A stretch of 49,031 nucleotides of DNA from Nitrosotalea sp. (GTDB taxonomy: Archaea; Thermoproteota; Nitrososphaeria; Nitrososphaerales; Nitrosopumilaceae): positions 1 through 49,031 of the forward strand of contig JARCRW010000091.1 of the NCBI GenBank assembly GCA_029850515.1, given 5' to 3'. Within the stretch, counting starts at the first letter, position 1; every line of letters starts with the position of its first letter. Under the pieces are notes generated by a model. The model made no database searches, had not been told where the DNA came from, and saw nothing but the letters and a program-made list of their open reading frames with translations. The position numbers and the translations under genes are program-made. Shown piece by piece: positions 9,840 to 44,551 of the stretch.

Positions 9840-9886
9840 CTACACCACTTTTTTAAACCATGTCTATCCAGTATGTGTACAAAATG
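9840..9886 (+). promoter_or_regulatory. Array promoter cassette, copy 3
   Basis: CTACACCAC, TTTTTTAA at 9849-9856, CCATGTCTATCCAGTATGTG, then ACAAA before the ATG at 9884, 35 nt after the TATA-like element. The in-frame ATG at 9860 lies inside the cassette and is not used as the start here. Confidence 0.88.
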
Positions 9887-42607: not shown

Positions 42608-42886
42608 CTATTCTCCAAGTTTTGACAAAAAGACTTCAACCTGCTTGTGGTATGAAACACTCTGCAGCCTAGTCTTTATTGCATCAACTATCACGGTATT
42701 GGACTCTCCAAAAACATCCTTGAGAACTTCTCTCAGGTATTCAGGATTGTCATAACAGTCAGACAAGTGTGAGTGATATATCTCAAAAAGCCTATTGCTT
42801 ACTCTTTGAAGTGAAACAGATCCGCTTTCAAGCAGAGCCTTTTGTATGGCAATATCCACAAACACTTTCTTTGTCTGATCAGACAT
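42608..42886 (-). CDS. NitrOD5-like small helical protein
   Basis: 92 residues, helical and without a signal peptide. The block SDCYDNPEYLREVLKDVFGE, followed by an amphipathic helix and FLSKLGE, matches my memory of the thaumarchaeal NitrOD5 output domain, which often ends response-regulator-like proteins. Here it stands alone. It is probably cytoplasmic and regulatory. It lies 24 nt downstream of the winged-helix gene on the same strand, so the two likely form one transcript. Confidence 0.7.
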   Translation of the reverse strand: MSDQTKKVFVDIAIQKALLESGSVSLQRVSNRLFEIYHSHLSDCYDNPEYLREVLKDVFGESNTVIVDAIKTRLQSVSYHKQVEVFLSKLGE

Positions 42887-42910: not shown

Positions 42911-43204
42911 TCAGGAAACACCTTTGTCTGGTATGATGTCATGCAGTTGATTGTGGATAAATATTCCAGTCTCTGTTAAACGTAGAACGATATGACCATC
43001 TTCTTTTCCAAGTTCTATCCAGTTGAATATCTTCATTAGGTTCAAGTATCTTTTAGTGGTACTGTGATTCAATCCCGAATGGACTGCCGTATCTGTTATT
43101 CTGCTTTTTCCCATTTCATAGAGTGCATCCAAGATTCTATGCATTATCTCAATGTTATAGTTGAGTGAAACCTGTTTTGTTTTCTTGCTAGTTGGTACCA
43201 TCAT
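42911..43204 (-). CDS. Winged-helix transcription regulator
   Basis: 97 residues. A helix-turn-helix (ILDALYEMGKSRITDTAVHS, then NHSTTKRYLNLMKIFNWI) is followed by a two-strand wing (KEDGHIVLRLTETG) and a short final helix. This is the layout of small archaeal DNA-binding proteins. It starts at ATG 43204. A TATA box (CTATATAG) and a 16-bp palindrome identical in layout to the one at 44003 lie 35-65 nt upstream, so it probably shares regulation with the gene at 44057. Confidence 0.82.
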   Translation of the reverse strand: MMVPTSKKTKQVSLNYNIEIMHRILDALYEMGKSRITDTAVHSGLNHSTTKRYLNLMKIFNWIELGKEDGHIVLRLTETGIFIHNQLHDIIPDKGVS

Positions 43205-43237
43205 GTTTTTTCAGATGATTTGTTATCGAGAAAAAAT

Positions 43238-43269
43238 ACTATATAGGATTTGATTAAATTCCAATTTAA
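43238..43269 (-). promoter_or_regulatory. Palindromic operator-promoter, copy 1
   Basis: Read on the minus strand: TTAAATT-GG-AATTTAA (43254-43269), then TCAAATC, then the TATA box CTATATAG (43238-43246). The start of the winged-helix gene follows about 34 nt later. Spacing between palindrome and TATA box equals that of the copy at 44003. Confidence 0.8.
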
Positions 43270-43285
43270 CCAAAAATATTATTAA

Positions 43286-43978
43286 CTATCTCTTGTATGC
43301 CTTGAGGATTCTTTCTATGACAAGCCCTGATATTATGACAACAAGTGGGATCACAAATATCAAAATTTCATGTGAAAACCAGGATGGTTCAATGGGTGCC
43401 ATGTATGGTGGAAGTGTAGCAGGTACATGTGTTGGGGAAAGTATCGTAGGTGCTGCTGCAGGCACAGCGGTTTGTAGTGCAGGTGCATTAGTTGGGCTTG
43501 GAGATACCGGAGCTCTAATTCCTGTAGAAGATTCAGGACTTGTACCTTGTAATACTATCCATGAGACAAGGCCGCCAAAACCTATTGCGGCAAATCTGTA
43601 GATTTTCCTCAGAGAATTAAAAAGAGACTTGCTTGATTTTGCCATCTCGGATGCCTTGGTAGAAGTGATGATGAATGCAAATTTGGTTGAAGCGTAATAC
43701 TTGACATCGCTTTCTCTAGCGACAATGCCTATTATTCCAAGGTCCTGCATCTTCTTTAGGTGGTATATTGCAAGTGGCAATGATATTCCAGCTTTTTGTG
43801 CAACCTGGTTTGCTGTCATGGTATCATCAAGCAATAATTTCAGGACGCTTCTGCTAGAGTCATTGCTTAGTATCTCACCAATGGACTTGATCTTGTCATC
43901 TTCTGTTGAGAGTATCTCGATTTTTTCTTTCAAATCTACTTGGTTTAATGCTTCAGAAATTTTGTCATTTTTCTCCAT
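43286..43978 (-). CDS. Membrane-bound winged-helix regulator with Pro-rich outer loop
   Basis: 230 residues. The N-terminal ArsR-like winged helix (about 30-115) has SSRSVLKLLLDDTMTANQVA, then SLPLAIYHLKKMQDLGIIG and a wing with KYYAST. Helix 1 (YRFAAIGFGGLVSWIVLQG, about 128-146) leads to a loop of about 50 residues, rich in Pro, Ala and Thr. Helix 2 (LIFVIPLVVIISGLVIERIL) returns to the cytoplasm with a KAYKR tail. The topology suggests a one-component sensor that reports surface conditions directly to DNA. Palindromic operators lie at both ends of the gene (43254 and 44003). Autoregulation and control of neighbours are inferences. Confidence 0.85.
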   Translation of the reverse strand: MEKNDKISEALNQVDLKEKIEILSTEDDKIKSIGEILSNDSSRSVLKLLLDDTMTANQVAQKAGISLPLAIYHLKKMQDLGIIGIVARESDVKYYASTKFAFIITSTKASEMAKSSKSLFNSLRKIYRFAAIGFGGLVSWIVLQGTSPESSTGIRAPVSPSPTNAPALQTAVPAAAPTILSPTHVPATLPPYMAPIEPSWFSHEILIFVIPLVVIISGLVIERILKAYKR

Positions 43979-44002
43979 GTGAATGTGATTTAAGGGTTGT
44001 CG

Positions 44003-44033
44003 TTAAATTTGAATTTAATCAAATCCTATAAAC
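44003..44033 (+). promoter_or_regulatory. Palindromic operator-promoter, copy 2
   Basis: TTAAATT-TG-AATTTAA (44003-44018), then TCAAATC, then CTATAAA (about 44026-44032). It drives the plus-strand gene at 44057 and lies about 25 nt upstream of the divergent membrane regulator, so it may control both. Confidence 0.8.
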
Positions 44034-44056
44034 TAATACCGTAATTGGATATGACA

Positions 44057-44551
44057 ATGAAATTTCCAAATATCAAGATTGTGTTTATTTTATTGTTGAT
44101 AATCATATCAATTGGAGTTTTTGTATTTGTTTTCAATTTGTATCATTATCCTAAAGGGTATAATCCTGTTCAAATTGTATCTGTAAAAGTAATTCCTGAT
44201 GACCCTCATGTCAATGATTTACTGGACTTTAATGTTACATTTCAAAACTTGGGATATCCTCCAATCTACTATATTGGTGGATGTGGTCCAGAGATGACAT
44301 ATTTTATTTTATCAAACAACACTAAAACAATTGGCGCATCAGGATGCATGTGCCCAATAGAGCCGACTGCAAAGTCTTTGTCACAAAATGAGGCTGTTTC
44401 TGCAGTAACATCATTTTGCACATCAGACAGGCAGCTTGTCACAAAACCTGGACAATATGTAGCCAATGTGACAGTTCATTGGAGTACAAAACCTTCGATG
44501 TACCTAGAAAACTCTACTTTTACCTTGTTCAAGCTAAACATAACAAAATAG
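44057..44551 (+). CDS. Membrane-anchored Ig-like protein under the palindromic operator
   Basis: 164 residues from ATG 44057 (MKFPNIKIVFILLL); ATG 44051 is also possible. The N-terminal helix (KIVFILLLIIISIGVFVFVF) seems uncleaved. The Ig-like domain (about 40-160: VNDLLDFNVTFQNLGYPPIY) has several Cys, including CGPEM, CMCP and FCTS. It is a relative of the domain at 41707 and 9884. It is the only array gene here whose promoter is the operator type, not the cassette, so it may be a specific target of the neighbouring regulator. Confidence 0.82.
   Translation: MKFPNIKIVFILLLIIISIGVFVFVFNLYHYPKGYNPVQIVSVKVIPDDPHVNDLLDFNVTFQNLGYPPIYYIGGCGPEMTYFILSNNTKTIGASGCMCPIEPTAKSLSQNEAVSAVTSFCTSDRQLVTKPGQYVANVTVHWSTKPSMYLENSTFTLFKLNITK

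Follow-up and report, generated by a model that had tools for sequence, protein, structure and literature searches.

The window, i.e., the whole stretch of 49,031 nucleotides that was analysed, is contig C91 of a genome of 1,704,434 bases (1.70 Mb) that is 99.55% complete. Toward its right end, two near-identical sites flank the gene of a predicted transmembrane regulator: the left one precedes an operon that encodes a small winged-helix protein and a NitrOD5-like protein, and the right one is placed between the divergent genes of the regulator and of a predicted surface protein (Table 1). The sequence-only reading of this locus had described a double layout of a palindrome, a heptamer and a TATA box, and the letters bear this out: TTAAATT-GG-AATTTAA-TCAAATC-CTATA lies on the minus strand upstream of 43204, and TTAAATT-TG-AATTTAA-TCAAATC-CTATA on the plus strand upstream of 44051/44057.

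Table 1. Predicted features of the regulator locus, in window coordinates
Feature	Coordinates	Strand	Details
Second gene of the left operon, 92-aa NitrOD5-like protein	42608..42886	-	77-82% identical in orthologues
Left target, 97-aa small winged helix (HTH_45/Sso10a-like)	42911..43204	-	HTH_45 E 2.2e-05, just under cut-off
TATA-like box CTATATAG	43239..43246	-	Small winged-helix operon; 2 bp from left operator
Left operator TTTGGTTAAATT-GG-AATTTAATCAAA	43249..43274	-	26-bp palindrome, 1/24 mismatch to ideal; kept in all orthologues
Transmembrane regulator, 230 aa	43286..43978	-	Pfam, AF2, Foldseek, hydropathy
Right operator TGTCGTTAAATT-TG-AATTTAATCAAA	43998..44023	+	3/24 mismatches to ideal; kept in all orthologues
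TATA-like box CTATAAAC	44026..44033	+	Right-hand target; 2 bp from right operator
Right target, 164-aa protein, N-terminal membrane segment and outer domain	44057..44551	+	Start 44051 or 44057

The 28-mer TTAAATT-N-GAATTTAATCAAATCCTATA occurs exactly twice in the genome, once on either side of the regulator gene. A scan of all 1,704,434 bases with TTAAATTNGAATTTAATCAAATCCTATA gave 0 mismatches at 43242-43269 (minus) and 44003-44030 (plus), and the sole extra place at up to three mismatches was C67:11832-11859, with three. The exact core TTAAATTNNAATTTAA was likewise found genome-wide only in the two window copies, and its reversed control had no match. Thus, a random scatter of the palindrome through the genome was looked for and not found, the exact pair being confined to the flanks of the regulator. 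With two mismatches allowed, the core is ordinary in 49 kb (2 found versus 1.79 expected), and therefore what counts is the exact, extended form in phase with the TATA box, together with the comparison with relatives. From orthologues and paralogues, the operator was delimited as a 26-bp inverted repeat, TTTGRTTAAATT-NN-AATTTAATCAAA. The palindrome first described is thus present but was drawn too short, and TCAAATC is not a separate element: it consists of the promoter-proximal arm of the 26-bp palindrome and the first spacer bases. Both arms and a TATA box at a constant distance appear in a profile built from 97 distinct sites, the TATA part being partly by construction because some sites were fetched with a pattern that includes CCTATA; the palindrome scan used the 26 bp only, without the TATA box.

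A second repeated promoter module, ASTTTTTTAAACCATRCNTGTCCAGTAC, was observed in the window at 9847, 23023, 33505, 44582, 45095 and 48016 (plus strand) and also on contigs C25 and C38. It precedes many surface-protein genes that begin with MKTLHL or similar, and its reversed control has 0 matches in the genome. A viral origin of the locus was considered and dropped, as blastn of 43200-44100 against phage records gave no match.

The gene between the two sites had been read as encoding a winged helix, two helices and a Pro/Thr-rich outer loop, and each of these parts found support. For the winged helix, Pfam gave HTH_24 (E 1.3e-05) and HTH_5 (PF01022; 22.6 bits, cut-off 22), neither of them below its cut-off, the AF2 model has a winged helix with block-mean pLDDT of ~70-89 at residues 31-90 (elsewhere the values are low and the membrane part is unusable), Foldseek listed ArsR-type structures, and the family profile matched PH1932 (1uly, E 4e-07) and also 2p4w among PDB entries. 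The predicted layout consists of an ArsR-like winged helix (~28-98), a membrane helix (~126-147), an outer loop, another membrane helix (~201-226) and a basic tail; the maximum mean hydropathy over 19 residues of the two hydrophobic segments is 1.39 and 2.55. The loop has 53 residues, including 13 Pro, 9 Ala, 6 Thr and 6 Ser, and is predicted to lie outside because basic flanks stand on the predicted cytoplasmic sides of both segments. No known sensor domain was recognised in the loop, no HAMP match was found by Pfam at E 0.1 or better, and the OmpR-type winged helix (Trans_reg_C) is absent among the Pfam matches. A cysteine-based metal sensor is unsupported, given that the 230 aa contain no cysteine and that NF033788 scores 21.7 bits against a cut-off of 55. 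The named relatives of the protein are Thaumarchaeota MAGs, one of them labelled Candidatus Nitrosotalea.

At E 1e-10, the regulator family was found in 98 of the 250 genomes of the class, mostly in one ammonia-oxidising family (f1), from which we collected 85 distinct members by protein search, not by motif. A site with at most 5/24 mismatches lies within ~200 bp of 57 of these 85 members, versus 0.19% of shuffled flanks; with the orthologues of the window regulator removed, the count is 51/79, and it should be noted that the related species in these comparisons are non-independent. Ten of the 85 have no near site at up to seven mismatches: one stands at a contig break, three have a site farther off, and the others are unexplained or remote. 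Chance origin of the palindrome was rejected on the unique exact pair in the genome together with the family-linked sites compared to shuffled flanks.

The sites accompany the regulator in several arrangements. Both are kept in all orthologues (L001-L005 and L007-L009, 64-94% identical). In members that are ~32% identical (L018, L019, L021-L024 and L034), one related site lies just downstream and fronts a SIMPL gene (PF04402) where the contig extends that far. In a third group (L010, L087 and L088, and L154 in another genus), the site precedes a gene for a secreted beta-propeller (PF09826), and in a fourth, TTTGATGAAA-N6-TTTCATCAAA is found between the regulator and a small membrane protein. 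Genome G026, from another family, carries a palindrome with one mismatch before a secreted-protein gene, ~1.6 kb from the regulator (L161). Genus-wide, the half-site plus TATA pattern occurs one to five times per genome where present, mostly beside a family member, and the reversed control gave one match in 37 genomes. In dozens of related species, a protein of this kind has retained a site of this kind beside it, so that the pair looks like a real switch for cell-surface proteins. Sites were also observed that have no regulator gene nearby (L047, L056, L058, L084, L085, L089-L091 and L185); these stand mostly before genes with signal-peptide-like starts and are candidate trans targets.

The operator varies together with the recognition helix of the regulator. 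Members with a Pro helix (SxPL) have the arm TTTAAT, or TTTTAT in three members, and members with a Gln helix (SxQL) have TTTCA in at least one arm; the operator C was found in 34 of 34 Gln members versus none of 58 Pro members. The p value of Fisher's test (6e-26) overstates the association because the sequences are related, and the independent changes number two or three. A single Pro/Gln change does not suffice for the tree of the DNA-binding domains, which has a large Gln clade and, in addition, L167, which has Gln inside an otherwise Pro clade and whose site also has the C; on this tree, Gln arose at least twice. To us, this covariation is the strongest argument for direct reading of the site by the membrane protein.

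In the branch of the Gln type, a module, TLEEMLKLARERV...P.AGSGTP, is common to the outer loop of the regulator and to the small membrane protein that is encoded divergently from it, behind the same operator. A profile of four of the small membrane proteins finds the regulator loops with E down to 1.5e-11. The module was observed in the loops of L016, L031-L033, L068, L073, L080-L083 and L160 and in the small membrane proteins L068:1432-1872, L069:79-399, L074:1152-1469, L081:569-976 and L160:1147-1461; it is absent from the window regulator.

In the orthologous loci, the left operon is constant. The 97-aa winged helix is present in all of them (64-93% identical) and resembles small HTH_45 proteins encoded after related sites in L094, L098, L100 and L101, loci of another membrane-regulator branch in which membrane regulator and small regulator are arranged as in the window. 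The 92-aa protein is 35% identical to a protein beside the SIMPL-linked regulators; four of its seven homologues match NitrOD5 (PF11537) weakly (best E 0.00085; a single score of 16.4 for one homologue, against a cut-off of 27), and the window protein has no match to it. Companions of 92-96 aa of this NitrOD5-like kind were observed in the window and at L018:1007-1288, L022:983-1258, L034:933-1214, L137:2469-2753, L140:2395-2685 and L142:2468-2752, and stand-alone NitrOD5 proteins have been described in 7 copies in Ca. Nitrosotalea devanaterra (PMC5847659). As judged from these homologues, the NitrOD5-like protein is a second conserved companion of the regulator family, found with the window regulator and with the SIMPL-linked ones. 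Behind the right operator, in turn, stand surface-protein genes of three kinds that bear no relation to one another: the 164-aa protein, whose supposed Ig-like nature was unconfirmed by Pfam, is 98% identical in L001, and unrelated genes take its place in L002-L005. Window 44003-44551 and L001-L005, with operator and regulator kept, read as a case of target swapping behind a fixed operator. The called right-hand gene of L003 and L004 starts ~100 bp further on, and a short first reading frame may stand ahead of it.

Elsewhere in the genome, a SIMPL gene on contig C67 is preceded by a related site, and a paralogous regulator is encoded on C48. In this assembly (G000), a break near a long T run separates the SIMPL operator (end of C67) from its regulator (start of C48); judging by the synteny of relatives, C67 and C48 appear to be neighbours. 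On C79, a surface gene has a site with one mismatch and a TATA box at the right spacing and was retained as a candidate trans target. The C75 site (two mismatches) lies inside a coding region and was dropped, and those on C10 and C95 (three mismatches) were taken as chance. The predicted targets in this genome are the small winged-helix/NitrOD5-like operon, the surface protein, the SIMPL protein and one trans surface gene. The compact circuit that had been proposed, in which a surface sensor controls a second regulator and a surface protein, is supported insofar as the sites behave as operators, front these two kinds of genes, follow the regulator family and vary with its recognition helix. 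It was incomplete, being one instance of a family-wide system that includes SIMPL, beta-propeller and other secreted targets, as well as the C79 site in trans.

The best explanation overall, to which we assign a probability of about 0.75, is a membrane-anchored one-component regulator with a 26-bp operator that would control surface-linked targets, preferably by repression. The architecture, the operator, its linkage to the regulator family, the covariation and the place of the right site between divergent genes are read from the sequence, and from it we infer dimer binding, membrane location, sensing, autoregulation and the sign of control. The product of the regulator gene would be an ArsR-like winged helix in the cytoplasm, tethered to the membrane by two helices with a short outer loop, and its dimer would read the palindrome from the membrane. 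From its position 2 bp upstream of the TATA boxes, the palindrome would govern both the winged-helix/NitrOD5-like operon and the divergent surface-protein gene; the related sites before the SIMPL gene, beside the paralogue of the regulator, and before the C79 surface gene would join the same control. A change in the envelope would be felt via the loop and the membrane helices, and the winged helix would respond. The bound dimer would cover the BRE next to the TATA box, causing repression, and the envelope signal would release it. Since the regulator and its target have the right site between them, the regulator probably controls itself, too. Its ATG is 19 bp from the palindrome, so that, for a leaderless start with its TATA box ~25 bp upstream, this box would be part of the palindrome, which suggests autorepression. 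One half-site is common to two family members of this genome; thus, cross-talk is possible and the pairing of protein to site is ambiguous.

The same regulator and operator could work with the opposite sign, in which case the protein bound just upstream of the TATA box would activate by helping TBP/TFB; to this we give somewhat less than an even chance. The upstream position and the ArnR parallel favour activation: the whole of each site precedes the TATA box, in a fixed phase, and ArnR and ArnR1, which have the same overall layout, are activators (PMC6396743). The BRE overlap and the spacing of the ATG favour repression, given that the proximal arm extends as far as the BRE position, with 2 bp left to the TATA box, and that the TATA box of the regulator itself would be buried in the palindrome. 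Moreover, ArsR-type proteins are mostly repressors. Because the palindrome overlaps the expected BRE, the sign is unreadable from position, and we lean only slightly toward repression over activation from the same place.

It is improbable that the sites are bound by another protein, such as the 97-aa winged helix or a general factor, with the membrane protein a mere neighbour. A winged-helix gene does follow the left site, as HTH_45 genes follow related sites in the four loci named above; yet most site-bearing loci have a membrane regulator and no small winged-helix gene nearby, and the operator base varies with the recognition helix of the membrane protein. Least credible, with hardly any probability left to it, is the view that A+T-rich DNA here just contains a strong core promoter (BRE plus TATA) and that no regulator acts on it. 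Although the proximal arm and the BRE position overlap and relaxed core matches arise often by chance, the sites adjoin one protein family, and a plain core promoter was rejected on the low copy number per genome, the near absence of control matches and the conservation of the distal arm as an inverted repeat beyond any core promoter.

Going back to the membrane-anchored regulator, we tentatively suggest, with more doubt than confidence, that ammonia-oxidising archaea have in common a network of membrane-tethered, ArsR-like envelope switches, rich in paralogues, with their own versions of the 26-bp code, plug-in surface targets and, in one branch, a loop homologous to the small membrane protein that the switch appears to control. 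If so, a changed recognition helix would give each switch its own operator version, new surface-protein genes would be plugged in behind a fixed operator, and in that one branch the switch and its small membrane product would sense a common partner or interact directly. Ammonia-oxidising archaea are abundant and important in nitrogen cycling, and the locus offers concrete promoters and proteins for asking how they adjust their surface. In many genera, the regulator family, the operator and the likely targets are recognisable from sequence, together with a residue-to-base rule that can be tested, and the locus is a predicted example of a switch that would read DNA while anchored in the membrane.

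Among known systems, the bacterial ToxR/CadC-type regulators likewise read DNA from the membrane and have surface or stress genes as targets. They possess an OmpR-type winged helix and one membrane helix, whereas the protein described here has an ArsR-type winged helix and two. With the ArsR/SmtB winged helices (1uly/2cwe PH1932, NolR, HlyU and SmtB) it shares the fold and a palindromic operator, and it differs from them in its membrane anchor, the lack of cysteine and an NF033788 score far below the NCBIfam metalloregulator cut-off. Transmembrane transcription regulators (TTRs), which combine a DNA-binding domain and a predicted membrane region in one protein, are widespread in archaea according to a survey, the main text of which does not mention ArsR-type or thaumarchaeal cases (PMC10269533). 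The two features that define TTRs, a predicted DNA-binding domain and at least one predicted membrane-spanning region, are both present in the window protein. Similar in design are ArnR and ArnR1 of Sulfolobus acidocaldarius, archaeal membrane-bound one-component regulators with an N-terminal HTH, two C-terminal membrane helices and inverted-repeat sites upstream of a surface-structure promoter; ArnR, which has a putative HAMP and a sensor domain, acts as an activator of flaB through inverted repeats that precede the promoter, the ArnR box being TCGAC-N5-GTCGA (PMC6396743). By this description of ArnR, the window regulator is set apart by a Pro/Ala/Thr loop between the helices with no HAMP match, and its site by a 26-bp A+T-rich palindrome that abuts the TATA box. 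No description of a regulator-operator pair of such kind in ammonia-oxidising archaea was found in the open-licence papers that were searched, and the switch is apparently undescribed so far. Its kind is already known, that of a transmembrane transcription regulator such as ArnR, and the operator and the targets are its own.
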